Of a stretch of DNA of 19,385 bases, positions 10,873 through 19,385 are shown in pieces. A program made the position numbers and the translations under genes. Within the stretch, counting starts at the first letter, position 1; each line of letters begins with the position of its first letter. Source of the stretch: an uncultured Eubacteriales bacterium (GTDB lineage: Bacteria; Bacillota; Clostridia; Christensenellales; Borkfalkiaceae); the NCBI GenBank assembly GCA_902797515.1, contig CADBSX010000031.1, positions 1 to 19,385 of the forward strand, in the 5' to 3' direction. The notes below the pieces were generated by a model. That model searched no databases, had not been told where the DNA came from, and saw nothing but the letters and a program-made list of their open reading frames with translations.

Positions 10873-11706
10873 TCAGTATTTTTTCTGTCGGAGCGCGGAT
10901 TCCGTTTTCGCTATCTCTTCTTCGGCTTTTCCGAGGCGGCAGGCGAGATATGAATAAATCGTATCGACTATGGCGAGTTGCGCTATCCTCGAACTTAAAC
11001 CGAGTATTCTGTAATTCATCTCGTCCGAAACCGTTTCGAGAACTATATCGCTCGCTTTGTCTATAGGCGATTTCCCCTTGTGCGTGAGAGCGACGGTAGT
11101 CGCGCCGTTCTGTTTAGCGGTTTTCAGCGCCTCGACTATATCTTTCGACTGTCCCGAATGCGAAACGCCTATCGCGACGCTTTTTCCGTCGGCGTGCGCG
11201 GCGGCTATCGCCTGCATATGATTGTCGGTATAAGCGGTCGCGTTAAGTCCGAGACGGAGCATCTTATGCGCCGCGTCGATGCAGACGGACGCCGAATTTC
11301 CGAGCCCGAATATCATAATTCTGTCCGCGGAAAGTATCTTTTCGCACGCTTTTTCGAGCGCGCCGCCGTCTATCGAATTTTTGGTTTTTTCCAGAGAACA
11401 GTATATATCGTCGCAGACTTTTCCGAATATTTTATACGCGGAATCGTCTTTTTTAATGTTTTCGCTCACAGGTTTGACTTCCGTTTCGGACGCGACTGCG
11501 AGTTTTAATCCCTGATAACCGTCGAAACCGAGTTTTTTCGCGAACCGCACCGCCGTAGCCTCGCTGACGGCGCACTCGTCCGCAAGTTCCGTTATATAGA
11601 GCGAAATAAGTCTCCGCGGATTTTCCATAACGAAATCCGCGATCTTTTTTTCCGTCTTGCTGAAAGAGTCGTAAAGTATTTTTATTTTAAGAAGAGTTTT
11701 TTCCAT
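10873..11706 (-). CDS. RpiR/MurR-family transcriptional regulator (HTH + SIS)
   Basis: A 277-residue sugar-phosphate-responsive regulator. The N-terminal RpiR helix-turn-helix covers about residues 1-77 (FSKTEKKIADFVMENP, then ELADECAVSEATAVRFAKKLGFDGYQGLK, both typical of the family). A SIS domain follows at about 110-245 with GLGNSASVCIDAAHKML and VSHSGQSKDIVEAL, which binds phosphosugars in relatives. Length is standard (about 280). It is divergent from the polyol/sugar-acid catabolic operon starting at 11883. Two related 17-bp palindromic sites lie in the 176-base gap between them, one beside its own promoter and one over the operon promoter. It is thus the likely local repressor or activator of that operon. 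Confidence 0.93.
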   Translation of the reverse strand: MEKTLLKIKILYDSFSKTEKKIADFVMENPRRLISLYITELADECAVSEATAVRFAKKLGFDGYQGLKLAVASETEVKPVSENIKKDDSAYKIFGKVCDDIYCSLEKTKNSIDGGALEKACEKILSADRIMIFGLGNSASVCIDAAHKMLRLGLNATAYTDNHMQAIAAAHADGKSVAIGVSHSGQSKDIVEALKTAKQNGATTVALTHKGKSPIDKASDIVLETVSDEMNYRILGLSSRIAQLAIVDTIYSYLACRLGKAEEEIAKTESALRQKKY

Positions 11707-11882: not shown

Positions 11883-13307
11883 ATGAACGACTTTTTATTT
11901 ACGCAAGTCCTTACGGAACTCGAAGACGCGGTCGGCAGAGAAAACTGTTCGACGAGCGAAATAGACAAAGTGACGCACAGCGTCGATTATTTCTGGCTGT
12001 CGCGCATGTGGGCGGACAGAGGCAGAAGGATGCCCGAGGCGGATTTCGTCGTATCGCCGAAAGACGCGCGCGAAACGTCGAAAGTAATGAAGATTGCGAA
12101 CTATTACAAGATCCCCGTCACGACTTGGGGGGGAGGCGGCGGAACGCAGGGCGGCGCGATCCCCGTCGCGGGCGGCATACTTCTCGACACGAAGAGGATG
12201 TGCGAGATATACGAGATAAACGAAGAGGGGATGTATATCGAGTGCGGCGCGGGCGCGATATATAAACACGTCGAATGGGCGGCTAACGAAAGGGGATATT
12301 GCACGATGCATTATCCTTCGTCGCTCACGTGTTCGACCGTCGGCGGATTTCTGGCGCACAGGGGCATAGGAGTAGTCTCGACCAAATACGGCAAGATAGA
12401 CGATATGGTGCTGAAAATGGAAGTGGTGCTTCCGAACGGCGATATAATAGAGACTTCGCCCGCGCCAAAACATGCGGCGGGACCGGATCTCAATCAGATA
12501 TTCATAGGCTCGGAAGGAACTCTCGGCGTAATAACGAAGGCGCAGATGCGCATATACGATCAGCCCGAAACGCGGCGTTTCAGAGGATTTCTCTTTAAAG
12601 ACCTGTCGTCGGCTTTTAAAGCGTCGAGGGAAATTTTACAGAAATTCAAACCTTCGGTAATGCGCCTTTACGACGAGGCGGAAACGGCGAGTTTAATAAA
12701 GAAGATAGTCGGAGTCGAAAGAAAAGGCGCGTTTATGAACGTTGCGTACGAGGGCGTAAAAGAACTCGTGGACGTCGAAGAAAAAATACTTCTCTCGACT
12801 TTTAAAAAATACGGCGCGGAGGACCTCGGCAGCGAGTACGGCGAAAAGTGGTGGAAAGAGAAGATAACTTTCTTTTATCCCGGGCATATGATGGATCTTC
12901 CGCAGATGTTCGGAACGATGGACACGATCGCGCCTTACGACAAGATAGAAAAGATATATCGGGCGATGAAAGAGGCGATAGAGACGAATTTCCCGCAGGC
13001 TAAATTCATAGCGCATTTCTCACACTGGTACGAGTGGGGCTGTATGGTTTACGATCGGTTTATAATCGACGGAAAAGACGTTCCCGAAGATCCGCGCGAG
13101 GCTATGCGACTTCACAACGCGATATGGAATTTAGGCGTTCGGACGGCGATAGCGAACGGCGGCGTGGTAAACGATCACCACGGCGTTGGAATAAAACTCG
13201 GGCGTCTTATGAAAGAGCAGTACGGCCCCGCGATGCAGGTATTCGAGGGCATCAAAAAATCTCTCGATCCGAACGGGATAATGAATCCGTTCAAACTCGG
13301 TTTGTAA
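11883..13307 (+). CDS. FAD-binding oxidoreductase, GlcD / alkyl-DHAP synthase-like
   Basis: A 474-residue flavoprotein of the VAO/PCMH superfamily. An N-terminal FAD-binding domain (about 50-230) shows the pyrophosphate loop TTWGGGGGTQGG (80-91), then SSLTCSTVGGFLAHRGIG (146-163) and IFIGSEGTLGVIT (207-218). A C-terminal FAD-oxidase domain ends in NDHHGVG (about 428-434) and LDPNGIMNPFKLG. The HHGVG motif resembles alkyldihydroxyacetonephosphate synthase; the C-terminal tail is shared with glycolate and D-lactate dehydrogenases. It probably oxidises a hydroxy-acid or polyol carbon. A strong AGGAGAGG ribosome site precedes the ATG. It leads the operon, is followed at once by a ferredoxin-type protein, and shares the operon with a fused ETF, so electrons probably leave through these rather than to oxygen. 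The substrate is unknown. Confidence 0.9.
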   Translation: MNDFLFTQVLTELEDAVGRENCSTSEIDKVTHSVDYFWLSRMWADRGRRMPEADFVVSPKDARETSKVMKIANYYKIPVTTWGGGGGTQGGAIPVAGGILLDTKRMCEIYEINEEGMYIECGAGAIYKHVEWAANERGYCTMHYPSSLTCSTVGGFLAHRGIGVVSTKYGKIDDMVLKMEVVLPNGDIIETSPAPKHAAGPDLNQIFIGSEGTLGVITKAQMRIYDQPETRRFRGFLFKDLSSAFKASREILQKFKPSVMRLYDEAETASLIKKIVGVERKGAFMNVAYEGVKELVDVEEKILLSTFKKYGAEDLGSEYGEKWWKEKITFFYPGHMMDLPQMFGTMDTIAPYDKIEKIYRAMKEAIETNFPQAKFIAHFSHWYEWGCMVYDRFIIDGKDVPEDPREAMRLHNAIWNLGVRTAIANGGVVNDHHGVGIKLGRLMKEQYGPAMQVFEGIKKSLDPNGIMNPFKLGL

Positions 13308-13317
13308 GGAGAACGTA

Positions 13318-14397
13318 ATGATGAATATATCCGAAAAAGCGAAAAAAACGATAGACAGTTGCAGATTTTGCTGGATGTGCCGTCACGTCTGCCCGATAGG
13401 GAACGCCACGGGACAAGAGAGAAACACGGCGCGGGCGCGGGCTCTCGGCTCGTCGCTCGTCGCGAGGGGCGCGGAAGAAATAAAAGTCATCGCCGCCAAC
13501 GTTTACGAGTGCGCGCTCTGCGGCGCTTGCACGAACAACTGCGTTACGGGTTGGGATCCGAAAACTTTTATAATCGAGGAAAGACGGGAAATAATTCTCG
13601 AAAACGCCGCGCCGGAATATATAAAAGCGTTGCTAAAAAAATACTTTGAAACGGGCAATATATACGGTAAAAAGGCGGACGGTATTCCCGAAACCGCGTA
13701 CGGCGGCGGCGAAGAAATACTTTTCGTCGCGGGGACGGACGCGGTCGTAAACGCGCCCGAAAACGCAGTAAACGCGCTTGCGCTTATAAAAAAAGCGGGC
13801 GAAAGAGTTTCGTTTATAAAAAATCAGGACAGCGGCGCGGCTCTTTATTTTCTGACGGGAAAAACGCGGGAAACGGAAGAGGCGGCGAAGAGATTTGCGG
13901 AAGATATAAAGGGATATAAGAAAATAGTTTTCTACGATCCGACGGACCTCGCGCTCGTTTCGCACGAATACAAAGAGTGGGGAATAGAAATAAGCGGAAA
14001 CGCGGTATCTTTTAACGAATACTTGCTTTATTTGACGGAGAGTGGTAAACTTAAACCGAAGAAGAGCGGAAAGAGGTATTCTTTGCAGGACAATTACGCT
14101 TACGCCAGAGACCTCGACGACGCGGAAACGGGCAGAAAACTTATAGAAAAGGTCGGCGAAAACAAAGATATGCTGCTTTGCGGAAAAGAGGCGAACTTCG
14201 CGGGAAGTCTTATTATGAACGAGTATATGCCGGAAGTTATGAAAAAAGTCGCGGAAAACAGATGGCGCGACGCAATAAATTCCGATTGCGAAACTCTCGT
14301 TACCGAAAGTCCGTCGGAATACGTTATGCTTAAAAAGACCGAACCTGAAGGCAAGAGAGTTATAACCGTCGAAGAAATGCTCGCGGAAAATCTATAA
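13318..14397 (+). CDS. GlcF-like Fe-S protein with cysteine-less C-terminal half
   Basis: A 359-residue protein with two N-terminal [4Fe-4S] motifs: Cys15, 18, 21, 25 (CRFCWMCRHVCP) and Cys65, 68, 71, 75 (CALCGACTNNC), as in the GlcF/LutA/HdrC-type electron carriers. After about residue 130 the protein follows the pattern of the two CCG (HdrB-like) modules but the cysteines are gone: VAGTDAV stands where a PGC would be, QDSGAAL for CCG, YDPTDLAL for ACATC, CGKEANFAG (288-296) for the second CCG, and TESPSEYVML (329-338) for ACPFC. Only Cys288 and Cys324 remain. It follows the FAD oxidoreductase by ten bases with AAGGAG before ATGATG; the second ATG is also possible. Likely role: electron transfer from the flavin subunit, probably towards the ETF. 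Confidence 0.85.
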   Translation: MMNISEKAKKTIDSCRFCWMCRHVCPIGNATGQERNTARARALGSSLVARGAEEIKVIAANVYECALCGACTNNCVTGWDPKTFIIEERREIILENAAPEYIKALLKKYFETGNIYGKKADGIPETAYGGGEEILFVAGTDAVVNAPENAVNALALIKKAGERVSFIKNQDSGAALYFLTGKTRETEEAAKRFAEDIKGYKKIVFYDPTDLALVSHEYKEWGIEISGNAVSFNEYLLYLTESGKLKPKKSGKRYSLQDNYAYARDLDDAETGRKLIEKVGENKDMLLCGKEANFAGSLIMNEYMPEVMKKVAENRWRDAINSDCETLVTESPSEYVMLKKTEPEGKRVITVEEMLAENL

Positions 14398-14414
14398 ATT
14401 AAGAGGATACGAAA

Positions 14415-15203
14415 ATGGAACTCAAAAAAACTTACGTTGAAGAATACGGCTACAAAAAGGTTATAACGGACAGAAACAGTCCGCTTTGCTATCTCGAACT
14501 CGATTTTCTCAAACTCGCCGACGGCGAGAGTATGTCGTTAAAAGAGATCGGGAAAGAAACCGCGCTTATAATATTATACGGAAAATGCCGCGTTTCGGGC
14601 GAGAATTTCGATTTTCCCGAAGTCGGGAAGAGGGCGGACGTATTCGCAGGGCCCGCGGAGGCGGTGTATATCGGAAAAGATACCGCATATACGGTCACGG
14701 CGAAAGGCGACGTGAAGATAGCGGTATGCAAAGCGCCCGCGGAAAAATATTTCGCGCCCGCTTACGTAAAGACGGAAGATATAAAGACAAAAGATCTCGG
14801 AAAGGGCGCATACGCGAGAAAGGCGGCGTTCAATTTCCCCGAAACCGTGCCCGCGAATTTGCTCTATATCGGCGAATTCTGGGTAAGCGACGGCAACTGG
14901 GCGAGTTTCCCGCCGCACAAACACGACGTCGATAATATGCCGACGGAAGGCGCGCTCGACGAGATATACTATTTCGAGTTCGACCGCCCCGAAGGTTTCG
15001 GATTTCAGGCGGTATATACCGAGAACGGCGATATAGACGAGGTGTATAAAGTAAAGACGGGCGACACGGTGGAAGTTCCGAGGGGCTATCATCCGTTCAC
15101 CGTCGCTCCGAATTATAAAAATTATTGTCTTTGGATAATGGCGGGGAAAAACAGAGGAATTTTCTCCACTACCGAAAAAGAACATAAATGGATGGTAAAA
15201 TGA
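14415..15203 (+). CDS. iolB: IolB-like 5-deoxy-glucuronate isomerase (KduI/IolB family)
   Basis: A 262-residue bicupin isomerase. In the C-terminal cupin the metal ligands are visible: His168 and His170 in SFPPHKHD, Glu183 in DEIYYFEF, and His226 in PRGYHP; these are the family signature positions. The N-terminal cupin is degenerate, as is usual. IolB converts 5-deoxy-D-glucuronate to 2-deoxy-5-keto-D-gluconate in myo-inositol breakdown. It is slightly shorter than the usual 270 residues. AGAGGAT precedes the start. The operon also holds a class II aldolase and a PfkB kinase that would follow IolB in that pathway. However, no IolD, IolE or IolG is in the window, and related isomerases act on other acidic sugars, so the substrate is likely but not certain. 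Confidence 0.85.
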   Translation: MELKKTYVEEYGYKKVITDRNSPLCYLELDFLKLADGESMSLKEIGKETALIILYGKCRVSGENFDFPEVGKRADVFAGPAEAVYIGKDTAYTVTAKGDVKIAVCKAPAEKYFAPAYVKTEDIKTKDLGKGAYARKAAFNFPETVPANLLYIGEFWVSDGNWASFPPHKHDVDNMPTEGALDEIYYFEFDRPEGFGFQAVYTENGDIDEVYKVKTGDTVEVPRGYHPFTVAPNYKNYCLWIMAGKNRGIFSTTEKEHKWMVK

Positions 15204-16657
15204 AGTACGTTTTAGGCGTCGATTTCGGCGGCGGGGCGAGCAAAGCCACTCTTTTAGACGAAAACGGGAAAGTCGCGGCGACCGCCGCGACGGAATATCC
15301 GACCTTTTACGGCGAGAACGGTAAAGCGGAACAAAATCCTCTCGATTGGTATAAAGCGGCGTGTAAAAATATCCGCGAGGTATTGAAGGGGAAAGATCCG
15401 TCGGACGTCAAAAGGCTTTGTTTCGACGCGGCGACGCATACCGCCGTACTTCTCGACGAAAAGGGCGCGCCCGTCGCGAATTCTATTTACTGGACGGACG
15501 CGCGCTGCGTAAAGGAAAAGGAATATTTAAAGAAATATTACGGCGATCGTATTTTCGGAAAATGTCTGCACGAAGTCGATACTATCTGGACCTTGCCCGA
15601 AATAATCTATTTCAAAAACGTCTTTCCCGACAAGTTCGGAAAGGTGAAGAGAGTTACTTTCGCCAAAGACTTCGTCCGCGGTCTTTTCACGGGCGATTTT
15701 CTGACCGACAAGACGGAAGTTCAGGGCAGTATGCTGTCCGATTTTCGGAAAAACGCGTGGGACCGGGAACTTCTCTCTCTCGCCGGTCTTACCGAAAGCA
15801 ATATGCCGAAGATCGTTTCTCCGCTTTGTTCGGCAGGCCGCGTCACTGAAAAAGCCGCCGCGGATTCGGGACTTAAAGAGGGAACGGAAGTAATAGTCGG
15901 CTCGACCGATACGGCGATGGAAGTTTTCGCGAGCGGCGGCGTAAGCGCGGGCGATACGACCGTAAAACTCGCGACCGCCGGGCGTATATGCGTCGTTTCA
16001 AAGAGGTGTTATCCCGATAAGCACGTAATAAATTATTCGCATTTAAAAGACGGACTGTATTATCCGGGGAGCGCGACGAAATCGTGCGCCGCGTCGCTCA
16101 GATGGTTTAAGGGCGCGTTCGGCGGCTCGTATGAAGAACTCGACGAACTCGCGGCGACCGTTCCCGTCGGCGCGGACGGACTTATCTTTCATCCCTATCT
16201 CACGGGCGAACTTACGCCGTATGCAAATCCGCTTTTAAGGGGATCGTTCACGGGAATATCCGCGGGACACGGAAAGGCGCATTTCGCGAGAGCGGTAATG
16301 GAAGGAGTCGCGGCGAGCCTTCTCGACTGCAAGAAATATCTCGAAGAAAAGGGAATAGCCGTAGCGGGGAAAGGCTCGGCGTATATAATAGGCGGCGGAG
16401 CGAAGAGCGGAGTATGGCGGAAAATAGTCGCCGATACGCTCGGAATAACGCTTAAAACCACCGAAAACAACGATTCGTCGTTCGGCTCGGCAAAGTGCGC
16501 GGGGATATCCGCGGGATTTTTCAAAGACTACGACGAGGCGTCGGCGGCTTGCCTTAAAATCACGGGCGAAACCGAGCCCGACGAAAAGAACTCGGCGATA
16601 TACGCCGAAAGGTACGCGAAGTATAAGAAAATAAGCGAATTTCTCGGTACGTTATGA
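15200..16657 (+). CDS. FGGY-family carbohydrate kinase (xylulokinase-like)
   Basis: A 485-residue sugar kinase of the actin-like ATPase fold. The phosphate-1 loop (VLGVDFGGGASKATLLDENG) opens the protein, the substrate region has THTAVLLDEKG and a YWTDAR segment, and the C-terminal half shows VGSTDTAMEVFASGG, the AGRICVV region and the adenosine-site IIGGGAKSGVW. The start at 15200 overlaps the iolB stop (ATGA) and begins MKYVLGVD, the usual opening; an in-frame ATG at 15188 would add four residues. FGGY kinases act on xylulose, ribulose, glycerol, erythritol and related compounds; this one is nearest in form to xylulokinase. It makes a second kinase in the operon beside the PfkB kinase, suggesting that more than one phosphorylation occurs or that the two serve different substrates. 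The stop overlaps the next ATG. Confidence 0.9.
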   Translation: MKYVLGVDFGGGASKATLLDENGKVAATAATEYPTFYGENGKAEQNPLDWYKAACKNIREVLKGKDPSDVKRLCFDAATHTAVLLDEKGAPVANSIYWTDARCVKEKEYLKKYYGDRIFGKCLHEVDTIWTLPEIIYFKNVFPDKFGKVKRVTFAKDFVRGLFTGDFLTDKTEVQGSMLSDFRKNAWDRELLSLAGLTESNMPKIVSPLCSAGRVTEKAAADSGLKEGTEVIVGSTDTAMEVFASGGVSAGDTTVKLATAGRICVVSKRCYPDKHVINYSHLKDGLYYPGSATKSCAASLRWFKGAFGGSYEELDELAATVPVGADGLIFHPYLTGELTPYANPLLRGSFTGISAGHGKAHFARAVMEGVAASLLDCKKYLEEKGIAVAGKGSAYIIGGGAKSGVWRKIVADTLGITLKTTENNDSSFGSAKCAGISAGFFKDYDEASAACLKITGETEPDEKNSAIYAERYAKYKKISEFLGTL

Positions 16658-18027
16658 AAGGTAAAGCCGTCGTCTGCGTAAAACTCAATAAGGGCGAAAT
16701 AAATCCCTTTGACGGGGCGGCTCTGGAAAGCGCGCTTTGTCTCGGCTTTGACGAAACGACCGTTCTCACGATGTCTCCGCCGTCGAGTAGTCCCGTCGCG
16801 GAAAGCATAACGAGGCTCGGCGTAAAGGTAATCGTCCTTTGCGATCCCGCGTTCGCGGGCAGCGACACGGTCGCGACGAGTTATATATTAAGTAAGGCTA
16901 TAAGTCGATTAAATCCCGATTTTATATTCTGCGGCAGGCAGAGTACCGACGGGGATACGGGGCAAGTTCCGCCGATGATAGCGGAAAGGCTCGGCTTTTC
17001 TTCGGTCGCGGGAGTAATGGAATTTTCGGAAAGCGGCGTAAAGACGAGAGCGGGGAAAAGCTATCCGTTTGAAAAGAAAACGGTTTATACTTTTGAAAGG
17101 ATCAAAAATCTGCGGTTTCCGTCGATGTTTTCCGAAAAAGGGGAAGTCACTGTTTTAAGCCGCGGCGATATAGGCGCGGAAACCGAAAAATGCGGACTTA
17201 TCGGCTCGCCGACGAGAGTTATACGTTCTTACGAAAGCGAGATCGGAAGAAGGCGGTGCGTTTTCGTAAAAGCCGAAGAGTTAAAGACCGAGATCGGAAA
17301 AGCGCTTTTAAAAAACGCGGTAAAAAAAGAAATTCCCGATCCGAAGGAAAAATTGCCGATAGTATATTACGTCGGAAATTTAAAAGATACCGCGGAAAAA
17401 CTCGGCGAGAAAGCGGAAAGGATATTCGCGGAGGGAAAAACCGCCGAGGATATATCGGAAGAAGTTATCGGAAAAGACGTAAAAGTCCTGCTTTTCGAGG
17501 ACACCGACGAATTTAAGGACCTCGCGCCGAAAGTCGCGGTAAAGACCGACGCCGGTATATGCGCGGACTGCGTTGCTTTCGGCGTCTCGGACGGAACGCT
17601 CGTTATGACCCGTCCGGCGGCGGGCGGAAACGTGACCGCCGATATAAAGTGCGAGGGAAAAAGGACTTTCGCGACGGTCAGAACGGCGAAAAGGGGAACT
17701 TCCGACGTCGTTTTTGCGGTCGGAAAGGGCGCGGCGGCGCATATGGACGAAATAAAGAGATACGCCGACTCGTTCGGCGCGGAAATATGCTGTTCCAGAT
17801 CGGTCGCGGACGCGGGGCTTATGCCTTATTCCGCGCAAGTCGGGCTTACGGGAAAGCGCGTTTCGCCGAAAGTTTACGTCGCGTTCGGAATATCCGGCGC
17901 GGTGCAGCACACCTGCGCGATATCGGGCGCGGGAACGGTGATCGCCGTCAACAATGATAAAAACGCAAGGATATTCGACTACGCCGACGTCGGTATAATC
18001 GGCGATATATCGGATATCGATTTATAA
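16654..18027 (+). CDS. fused electron-transfer flavoprotein, EtfB-EtfA
   Basis: A 457-residue single chain joining both ETF subunits. Residues 1-222 are EtfB-like: INPFDGAALESAL, the GRQSTDGDTGQVPP motif (95-107, AMP/nucleotide site) and LIGSPTRV (182-189). After a linker at about 223-235, residues 236-457 are EtfA-like, with ADCVAF (304-309), RPAAGGN (320-326), and the FAD domain: Ser-Arg 381-382, QVGLTGK (395-401, Thr399), FGISGAVQH (411-419, His419) and VNNDKNARIFDYADVGIIGD. Separate EtfB and EtfA total about 590 residues, so both halves are trimmed. The Arg of the canonical GGRG turn is Lys here (VGKG). ETF passes electrons from flavin dehydrogenases to a further acceptor; here its likely donor is the GlcD/Fe-S pair. 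It starts in the FGGY stop (ATGA). Confidence 0.92.
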   Translation: MKGKAVVCVKLNKGEINPFDGAALESALCLGFDETTVLTMSPPSSSPVAESITRLGVKVIVLCDPAFAGSDTVATSYILSKAISRLNPDFIFCGRQSTDGDTGQVPPMIAERLGFSSVAGVMEFSESGVKTRAGKSYPFEKKTVYTFERIKNLRFPSMFSEKGEVTVLSRGDIGAETEKCGLIGSPTRVIRSYESEIGRRRCVFVKAEELKTEIGKALLKNAVKKEIPDPKEKLPIVYYVGNLKDTAEKLGEKAERIFAEGKTAEDISEEVIGKDVKVLLFEDTDEFKDLAPKVAVKTDAGICADCVAFGVSDGTLVMTRPAAGGNVTADIKCEGKRTFATVRTAKRGTSDVVFAVGKGAAAHMDEIKRYADSFGAEICCSRSVADAGLMPYSAQVGLTGKRVSPKVYVAFGISGAVQHTCAISGAGTVIAVNNDKNARIFDYADVGIIGDISDIDL

Positions 18028-18039
18028 AGGAGAAAAGCA

Positions 18040-18867
18040 ATGCTTGTTAATTTACAGACGATTTTAAAAGACGCATACGAAAAGGGATACGCCGTGCCCG
18101 CGTTCAACGTGTATAATATGGAAACGGTGAAGGGCGTTATAGAGGCGGCGGAAGAAAAGAGGTCGCCCGTTATAATGCAGTTTTATTCGCGGCTCGCGAC
18201 AACGGGAGTTTCGGATTACCTTCTTCCCGTGATGCTCGCCGCGGCGAATAAAGCGACCGTGCCCGTATGTATCCATCTCGACCACGGTTCGGGATTTCCC
18301 GCGGCGGCGATAGCGGTCAGAAACGGTGCGAGCGGGATAATGGTGGATTTTTCAACTCTTCCGCTCGAAGAGAATATCGCGAACACCGAAAAAGCCGTGA
18401 AATTATGCGCGGCTCTCGGCATCGGAGTGGAGGGGGAAATCGGGCATATCGGCTCGGCGGCGGAGGGAGTTTCCGAGGATTACACGACCGTGGAAGAGGC
18501 GACCGAATTCGTTAAAAGAACGGGCGTTTCCGCGCTCGCGATAATGGTCGGCACGGCTCACGGAAGATATAAAAAAGCCCCGAAACTCGCGATAGAAAGG
18601 ATAAGGGAAATAAGGAACGCGGTGAAAACGCCGCTTGTCCTTCACGGCGGGAGCGGCGTTCCCGACGACCTTATAAAAGCCGCGATAAACGCGGGGATAT
18701 GTAAAATAAATTTCGGAACGGACCTTTGCTATTCCTTTCTCGACGCCGTTTTCGCGGTTGACAGAAAGATATACGCGATAGACCTGTTTATGAAAGAGCC
18801 GATAGAGGCGGTAAAGAAATTCGCGCTCGGAAAGATAGAACTTCTCGGCTCGGAGGGAAGAGTATGA
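18040..18867 (+). CDS. class II fructose-bisphosphate aldolase family (IolJ/GatY-like)
   Basis: A 275-residue zinc-dependent aldolase. Catalytic Asp81 and zinc ligand His82 (HLDHG), the EGEIG segment (131-135), His174 (GTAHG), His202 (LHGGSG), and the phosphate/DHAP loop KINFGTD (222-228) are present, as is the VDFSTLPLEEN loop. In the myo-inositol route IolJ of this family cleaves 2-deoxy-5-keto-D-gluconate 6-phosphate to DHAP and malonate semialdehyde; the family also includes fructose-, tagatose- and sulfo-sugar aldolases. AAAGGAG lies six to seven bases before the ATG. Its stop overlaps the PfkB start. Placed with iolB and a PfkB kinase it most likely acts on an IolC-type phosphorylated product, by inference from context. 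Confidence 0.92.
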   Translation: MLVNLQTILKDAYEKGYAVPAFNVYNMETVKGVIEAAEEKRSPVIMQFYSRLATTGVSDYLLPVMLAAANKATVPVCIHLDHGSGFPAAAIAVRNGASGIMVDFSTLPLEENIANTEKAVKLCAALGIGVEGEIGHIGSAAEGVSEDYTTVEEATEFVKRTGVSALAIMVGTAHGRYKKAPKLAIERIREIRNAVKTPLVLHGGSGVPDDLIKAAINAGICKINFGTDLCYSFLDAVFAVDRKIYAIDLFMKEPIEAVKKFALGKIELLGSEGRV

Positions 18868-19385
18868 AACGCGGCGTCGCAGGGCTCGGCGCATGCGTTT
18901 TCGACACGCTGATAAGCGTAGGAAGTTATCCCGAAGAGGACAGAAAAGTAAAGGCGGACGACGTGTTCGTTTCGGGCGGCGGTCCGGTCGCGAACGCGCT
19001 CGTGGTGATAAGCAAACTCGGCGTAGAGACCGAAATACTCGGCTGTATCGCGGACGATAAAGCGGGCGATTATATTGCGGCGGACTTTGAAAAATACGGC
19101 GTTTCGACGAAAAACGCGGTGAGAGTGAAAGGCGCGCGTTCGTTTACTTCGTATATTCTTCTTTCCGGAAAAACCAAAACGCGGACTTGCGTGTTCGACA
19201 GGGGCGATCTTCCCGACGACGAAAAAAACGTCGCCTTTTCCGCGATAGACGGCGCGGCTGTATTGCACCTTGACGGAAACTACTTAAAAAGCGCGCTTGC
19301 CGCGGCGAAGTACGCGAGGGAAAGACGCGTAAAGGTAAGTCTTGACGCGGGCGGATTGTACGAGGGCATAGGCGAACTTCTTCCG
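18864..19385 (+). CDS. PfkB-family sugar kinase, 3' end outside window (IolC candidate)
   Basis: An open frame from the ATG at 18864 (overlapping the aldolase stop, ATGA) to the last base, 174 codons with no stop. The N-terminal part is a ribokinase/PfkB kinase: GVAGLGACVFDTL at the start, a GGGPVANALVVISKLG substrate loop, GCIADDKAGDYI, then the lid region and LHLDGNY. The C-terminal ATP-site motif (GAGD) would lie beyond the edge, so catalytic completeness cannot be checked. Within an operon holding iolB and an IolJ-like aldolase, an IolC-type 5-dehydro-2-deoxygluconokinase is the natural candidate, but the family has many substrates and this is context-based. Confidence 0.88.
   Translation, partial: MKRGVAGLGACVFDTLISVGSYPEEDRKVKADDVFVSGGGPVANALVVISKLGVETEILGCIADDKAGDYIAADFEKYGVSTKNAVRVKGARSFTSYILLSGKTKTRTCVFDRGDLPDDEKNVAFSAIDGAAVLHLDGNYLKSALAAAKYARERRVKVSLDAGGLYEGIGELLP

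Follow-up and report, generated by a model that had tools for sequence, protein, structure and literature searches.

Our study showed that a stretch of DNA of 19,385 bases from an uncultured Eubacteriales bacterium, which is an entire contig (G000:C31) and is called the window below, carries seven adjacent genes that recur with largely the same partners among its 80 best relatives. They encode a FAD dehydrogenase (FADox), a two-[4Fe-4S] electron-transfer protein (FeS), an IolB/KduI-family isomerase (IolB), an FGGY sugar kinase, a fused electron-transfer flavoprotein (ETF), a class II aldolase (FBA) and a PfkB-family kinase. With a probability of roughly 55%, we read this gene set as an uncharacterised oxidative sugar-catabolic system, in which a FAD/Fe-S/ETF oxidation would feed a pair of isomerase-kinase arms, with a ketose-1-phosphate aldolase at their centre; no description of the set was found in the literature searched. 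We infer the order of the steps and the point at which FADox acts as follows. FADox would dehydrogenate a sugar derivative, and the fused ETF would receive the electrons by way of two [4Fe-4S] clusters. In the first arm, a FucI-family isomerase and PfkB would yield a ketose-1-phosphate (NagA/NagB or ManA-like proteins perhaps taking the place of FucI in other loci), which FBA would cleave to dihydroxyacetone phosphate (DHAP) and an unphosphorylated aldehyde. In the second arm, the IolB-like isomerase and the FGGY kinase would convert an aldose, possibly the aldehyde released by the aldolase, to a ketose phosphate. The gene set is common in our sample of the class; identification of its substrate would bring to light a further sugar and an electron-carrier route, and would provide a test case for the rewiring of a Fe-S-linked dehydrogenase to ETF.

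Gene content and order

The initial annotation had described the seven genes as a tightly packed polyol or cyclitol operon with ATGA overlaps and a built-in flavin/Fe-S/ETF module. Open reading frames and Pfam/NCBIfam domains bear out the genes, their order and their packing, with intergenic spacings of 10, 17, -16, -4, 12 and -4 bases along the cluster, but four-base overlaps occur at only two of the six junctions, one further junction overlapping by 16 bases. The domains of the products are, in order, FAD_binding_4 with FAD-oxidase_C, a Fer4 dicluster, KduI/IolB, FGGY, ETF with ETF_alpha on a single chain, F_bP_aldolase and PfkB. Since the window is a complete contig, the pfkB-family gene (18864-19385, plus strand; Pfam) is truncated by its end and the right-hand flank can be examined only in relatives; complete homologues are present in loci L013 and L014.

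Relatives were picked by FADox similarity, the best 80 of 263 scanned being kept (FADox 86-92% identical); with the window and L013, which lies on the same contig as L035, this makes 82 loci, many of them cut short. FADox is present in all 82, FeS in 77, FBA in 69, IolB in 66, FGGY in 65, PfkB in 62, ETF in 57, an RpiR-family regulator in 45, FucI in 42 and DUF4867 in 20. The 46 loci of at least 17.5 kb, in which genes were counted anywhere in the locus, have a core of FeS (46), FGGY (46), IolB (44) and ETF (44, of which 42 by open reading frame and two by tblastn), together with FBA in 42 and in part in one more (L087), and PfkB in 41 and in part in one more (L019). Accessory genes are RpiR (26), FucI (25), DUF4867 (14), NagA (14) and NagB (13), and rarer ones encode an aldose epimerase (11), ManA-like proteins (3) and GKRP-like proteins (3). 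The two long loci that lack ETF, L082 and L095, stop at FGGY, and in the genome of L095 the ETF gene comes next (L160). In a second set of 19 loci from the class sample, five of which share FADox with earlier loci, ETF is present in all 16 loci that run past FGGY, and three end before its position. The flavin module is conserved across loci within a carbohydrate operon.

Two gene orders recur: that of the window, FADox-FeS-IolB-FGGY-ETF-(FucI)-FBA-PfkB, and (FucI)-FADox-FeS-FBA-PfkB-IolB-FGGY-ETF. Genome G438 carries the set as two separate units, FADox-FeS-IolB-DUF4867-FGGY-ETF and FucI-FBA-PfkB, which suggests that it consists of two modules. FucI and NagA/NagB tend toward mutual exclusion in the long loci (both in 4, FucI only in 21, Nag only in 11, neither in 10; Fisher p 0.012, with no tree correction), as if they were alternative routes to the ketose. 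NagA of L026 and L074 scores over its cut-off, NagB under. Three operons encode a GKRP-like SIS protein (L095:17741-19438; also L027 and L082) close to genes for NagA, NagB or both, L082 also encodes a GlcNAc 2-epimerase, and a 671-aa protein with no Pfam or NCBIfam match lies within the operon in L013 (10502-12517) and L019.

More distant versions of the operon differ in their partners. The order in G052 is NagA-Gfo-NagB-TIM-FADox-FeS-FBA-PfkB-IolB-FGGY-FAD oxidoreductase, and in G154 RpiR-FADox-FeS-FBA-glycerol-dehydrogenase-like-TRAP-TIM-IolB-FGGY, with no ETF, PfkB or FucI found in the G154 stretch. In G154, the presence of a TRAP transporter gives a hint of an acidic substrate; the best DctP match is 4ovt, whose ligand is L-fuconate. 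In G806, a UPF0261 protein (L173:220-1446) follows FADox and FeS.

The flavin enzyme and its proposed electron path

FADox (11883-13307, plus strand) was assigned by Pfam, PDB match, alignment and model. Its nearest solved relatives by sequence are AGPS (2uuu, 5.4e-41), followed by D-lactate dehydrogenases and LctD. An AGPS-type motif is found in all 81 sequences; the motifs around AHFSHWYEWG and NDHHGVG vary at each position in at most one of them, and 274 of 474 alignment columns are invariant. In all 81, the catalytic His423 of Acetobacterium woodii Ldh has a counterpart in the second His of NDHHGVG, which is aligned with that of SGEHGIG in the LctD-type protein L018. An AlphaFold2 model (mean pLDDT 86.3) matches both the AGPS and the lactate dehydrogenase families, AGPS coming first by Foldseek, so that the fold is not decisive. 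According to PMC9232219, the metal ligands of LctD-type enzymes are His377, His384 and Glu422; compared with L018, FADox keeps one of them (His) and has two replaced (by Met and His).

FADox is far more conserved than its partners or ObgE. Its median pairwise identity is 86% (minimum 80%), as against 59% for FBA, 57% for FGGY, 55% for PfkB, 52% for RpiR, 51% for FucI, 50% for FeS, 48% for DUF4867, 45% for ETF and 42% for IolB. In the most distant pairs the partners fall to 33-47% identity while FADox stays at 80-100% across loci, the selection of loci by FADox similarity having narrowed the spread of FADox and not that of its partners. Relative to G016 and G018, ObgE of the window's genome is 58 and 57% identical and FADox 92 and 88%; AspRS could not serve as a control in these two genomes because its matches there are short and weak. 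Within the genus, two genomes gave 70 and 73% for ObgE and 80 and 82% for AspRS. For G052 and G154, the corresponding values are 47 and 46% (ObgE), 51 and 47% (AspRS) and 72 and 60% (FADox). The near-constancy of FADox while its partners diverge points to demanding chemistry. More distant AGPS-like FAD proteins with an HHG motif are encoded near ETF genes in L015 and L016 and, in L017, beside an FGGY kinase gene in the same order; ETF-linked AGPS-type enzymes may be a wider anaerobic theme.

FeS (13318-14397, plus strand; Pfam, NCBIfam, alignment) retains its eight N-terminal Cys in 75-76 of 76 gut sequences and is similar in its C-terminal half to CCG-domain proteins of the HdrB/GlcF type. 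Five CCG columns can be defined by the Cys that G052 and G154 have in common. All 76 gut proteins lack the CCG pair and the last of these Cys; none has all five, and the letters CCG occur out of register in three. The CCG pair is lost in the gut proteins, whose operons carry ETF, and kept in G052 and G154, in whose retrieved regions ETF was not found by tblastn. Judging from these two outgroups, the passage from CCG clusters to ETF was perhaps a later swap of the electron exit.

The ETF (16654-18027, plus strand; Pfam, NCBIfam, alignment) has beta and alpha parts on one chain. Among 53 full-length sequences, the b-FAD motif DGDTAQVGP is largely kept (D122 in 34, G in 53, D124 in 51, T in 53, Q in 52, P130 in 36) and the EtfA Arg is retained in all 53. 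In the NAD motif RXFXG, F is found in 42 and G in 53, whereas Arg is found in 7 (Lys in 13), which makes NAD-linked confurcation by this ETF doubtful. The initial annotation had drawn an analogy with the lactate-oxidising LctD-EtfAB complex, and one could suppose that an LctBCD-like, flavin-based electron-confurcating hydroxy-acid dehydrogenase sits in a sugar operon by chance. The two replaced metal ligands and the scarcity of the NAD-motif Arg weaken the analogy, and the operon partners are largely constant between loci; we consider this reading quite improbable.

The proposed carbon path

According to PMC6692403, R259 and R280 of Giardia FBPA bind fructose bisphosphate. FBA (18040-18867, plus strand; PDB match, alignment) has Cys and Asp at these far-phosphate positions in 65 of 65 sequences, and the Cys recurs in all 17 aldolases of the second locus set. 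The zinc-binding His residues and the DHAP-phosphate loop (LDHG, HG and VLHGGS) are kept in 65 of 65. The two columns hold Cys and Asp in G052, and Tyr and Ala in G154. These residues favour a ketose-1-phosphate as the substrate, to be split into DHAP and an unphosphorylated aldehyde.

The isomerase and kinase of the putative second arm are IolB (14415-15203, plus strand), whose metal-binding HxH..E..H ligands are kept in 65 of 65 sequences, and FGGY (15188-16657, plus strand), for which xylulokinase is the nearest model (TIGR01312, 332 bits, cut-off 380); the G154 FGGY homologue exceeds that cut-off (400 bits). Uronate-like aldehydes are substrates of IolB/KduI enzymes, and the IolB of the window scores over the 5-deoxy-glucuronate isomerase cut-off (TIGR04378, 229 bits, cut-off 205), its G154 homologue falling under it (185). 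The set could therefore be read as a sugar-acid route, in which FADox would oxidise an aldonate or uronate, the IolB-like protein would form a 5-keto-hexonate, and phosphorylation would precede a split into DHAP and tartronate semialdehyde. Such a route would suit the G154 operon, which has TRAP transporter genes, a protein over the glycerol dehydrogenase cut-off and a TIM protein whose closest models are hydroxypyruvate isomerase and IolO, with scores far under both cut-offs, as well as the organic-acid-type permeases of a few gut loci (Lactate_perm in L083 and Mem_trans in L093; by cluster, each in 2 of the 46 long loci). We nevertheless regard it as unlikely: an acidic aldehyde is not favoured by the invariant Asp of FBA, at a position held by Arg in bisphosphate aldolases, and the gut operons contain no recognised tartronate-semialdehyde enzyme, although no search was aimed at one.

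A sulfo-EMP2 variant of sulfoquinovose degradation has several matches in its favour. The L013 PfkB has the sulfofructose kinase 7ag6 as its best PDB match, the best FBA match (8q58/8q57) is presumably SFP aldolase, although the match listing gives other names, and the sulfoquinovose isomerase SftI is the sole NCBIfam match of the L014 FucI-family protein. DUF4867, found in 14 of the 46 long loci, is the SqvB/SftX family (family context in PMC11968277 and PMC9594981); PMC11968277 connects it with ketose metabolism, its neighbours being of the FucI and FGGY families. The SftI match, however, falls far below its cut-off (79.8 bits, cut-off 700), an Asp lies at the aldehyde end of the aldolase, and the pathway as described has no place for FADox, FeS, ETF, IolB or FGGY; neither a sulfoquinovosidase nor a sulfolactaldehyde enzyme was recognised among the operon genes, although no search was aimed at them. 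Sulfoquinovose degradation is hence very unlikely.

The initial annotation had proposed the oxidation of a cyclitol, polyol or sugar acid, with inositol enzymes as its reference. An IolB-like protein, a PfkB that weakly matches the IolC model and an aldolase of class II, to which IolJ belongs, do occur together. The inositol-type pathway itself finds little in the genomes: neither IolD nor IolG scores over cut-off in any of six, with no IolD match in G000 (83.7% complete), the IolE-like TIM protein of L014 reaches 28.9 bits against 290, and PfkB is closer to ribokinase than to IolC. Catabolism of a cyclitol is therefore extremely improbable; of the initial proposal, it is the flavin route that stands.

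Several observations weigh against the oxidative ketose-1-phosphate system that we prefer. The evidence on the substrate comes from homology, and the IolB score over the 5-deoxy-glucuronate isomerase cut-off may point to a uronate-like one. E. coli KbaY and GatY have Lys and FbaA has Gln at the R259 column, with the second Arg kept; since these bisphosphate aldolases also lack Arg at that column, the loss of the Arg of the DPR motif is the stronger sign. FBA and PfkB are not beside FADox in four long loci, namely L047 (where they are elsewhere in the genome), L076, L087 and L090, and L087 and L090 also lack IolB. The best aldolase match in the genome of L090, like that of L076 of unstated completeness, is 37%. 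In that of L076, which has the same short operon, it is 44% with no FucI or PfkB nearby, which also speaks against the two-module view. In L087, FGGY is fused to part of an aldolase, perhaps through an artefact of assembly or deletion. Finally, the CCG/ETF contrast has two outgroups only, one of the five CCG columns is still Cys in 20 of the 76 gut FeS proteins, and the third distant operon (G806, 54%) lacks CCG on a contig that ends ahead of a possible ETF.

Distribution and comparison with known systems

Searches of 14 genomes of the same genus gave no FADox match in any (E up to 0.001). Of 10 family members from other genera, two have FADox, 92 and 88% identical. In even draws that count its own genome, FADox was found in 3 of 398 genomes at the level of the phylum (E threshold 1e-90) and in 26 of 391 at that of the class (E threshold 1e-150), the other 25 of the latter being 84-88% identical in 24 cases and 54% in one. 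The best 120 protein relatives of the window FADox are 82-93% identical; those of the distant G154 FADox, itself apart, are 60-76% identical and include, among the matches listed, names from Bacillota, Armatimonadota, Spirochaetota, Thermoguttaceae and Oligosphaeraceae. Record labels of the loci are mostly Clostridia or a Clostridia family, with Erysipelotrichaceae for L083 and Cloacimonadota for L091, and host words (ruminant, deer, rabbit (Lapin), rumen) appear in 38 of 80 record titles, the remaining titles being uninformative codes. This patchy spread of FADox suggests transfer or loss. A large serine recombinase with Resolvase/Recombinase domains (L013:3221-4825, same contig as L035) lies upstream of the L013 operon, which fits island mobility; it adjoins an 834-aa protein, TIR-like by eye. 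A bolder proposal, which we put forward tentatively and which may well prove wrong, is that of a mobile flavin-driven pathway for a common gut sugar: an AGPS-type FAD enzyme would oxidise related aldoses (gluco-, manno- and N-acetyl-gluco-like at C2), perhaps cleaving an ether or C-O bond oxidatively, followed by the ketose-1-phosphate aldolase split, with the electron exit rebuilt from CCG to fused ETF.

Upstream of the operon and divergent from it, an RpiR-family regulator with a SIS sugar-phosphate domain (10873-11706, minus strand; Pfam HTH_6 and SIS) probably belongs with the cluster, since RpiR is present in 26 of the 46 long loci. Further upstream (window:6459-9664), a DeoR-type regulator is followed by an ordinary ABC transporter (SBP_bac_3 and permease, with the ATPase named by eye).

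Among known systems, the IolBCJ end of the Bacillus-type myo-inositol pathway likewise brings IolB-, PfkB- and aldolase-family proteins together, and differs by the IolG and IolD that were not found over cut-off in the six genomes. Sulfo-EMP2 shares a FucI-family isomerase, DUF4867, a sugar kinase and a class II aldolase with the gut operons, which add the flavin module, IolB and FGGY and in which the sulfoquinovosidase and sulfolactaldehyde enzymes were not recognised. E. coli YdjH/YdjI, annotated as octuluronate kinase and 1-phosphate aldolase, also pair a PfkB with a class II aldolase, and YdjI lacks the DPR Arg and has Cys in place of R259; the gut family differs in its Asp at the R280 column, and the ydj stretch examined has no flavin module. 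AGPS, the best PDB sequence match of FADox, shares its SH..Y..G and HHG motifs at about 25% identity. No ether-lipid gene was recognised in the operon, and its position beside Fe-S and ETF genes makes FADox presumably a redox enzyme, unlike AGPS. LctBCD (Ldh-EtfAB) of A. woodii resembles the gut set in combining a PCMH-type FAD dehydrogenase with ETF. The gut set differs from it in its AGPS-type active site with altered metal ligands, its separate 2x[4Fe-4S] protein, its single fused ETF chain with the NAD-motif Arg mostly lost, and its setting in a sugar operon.

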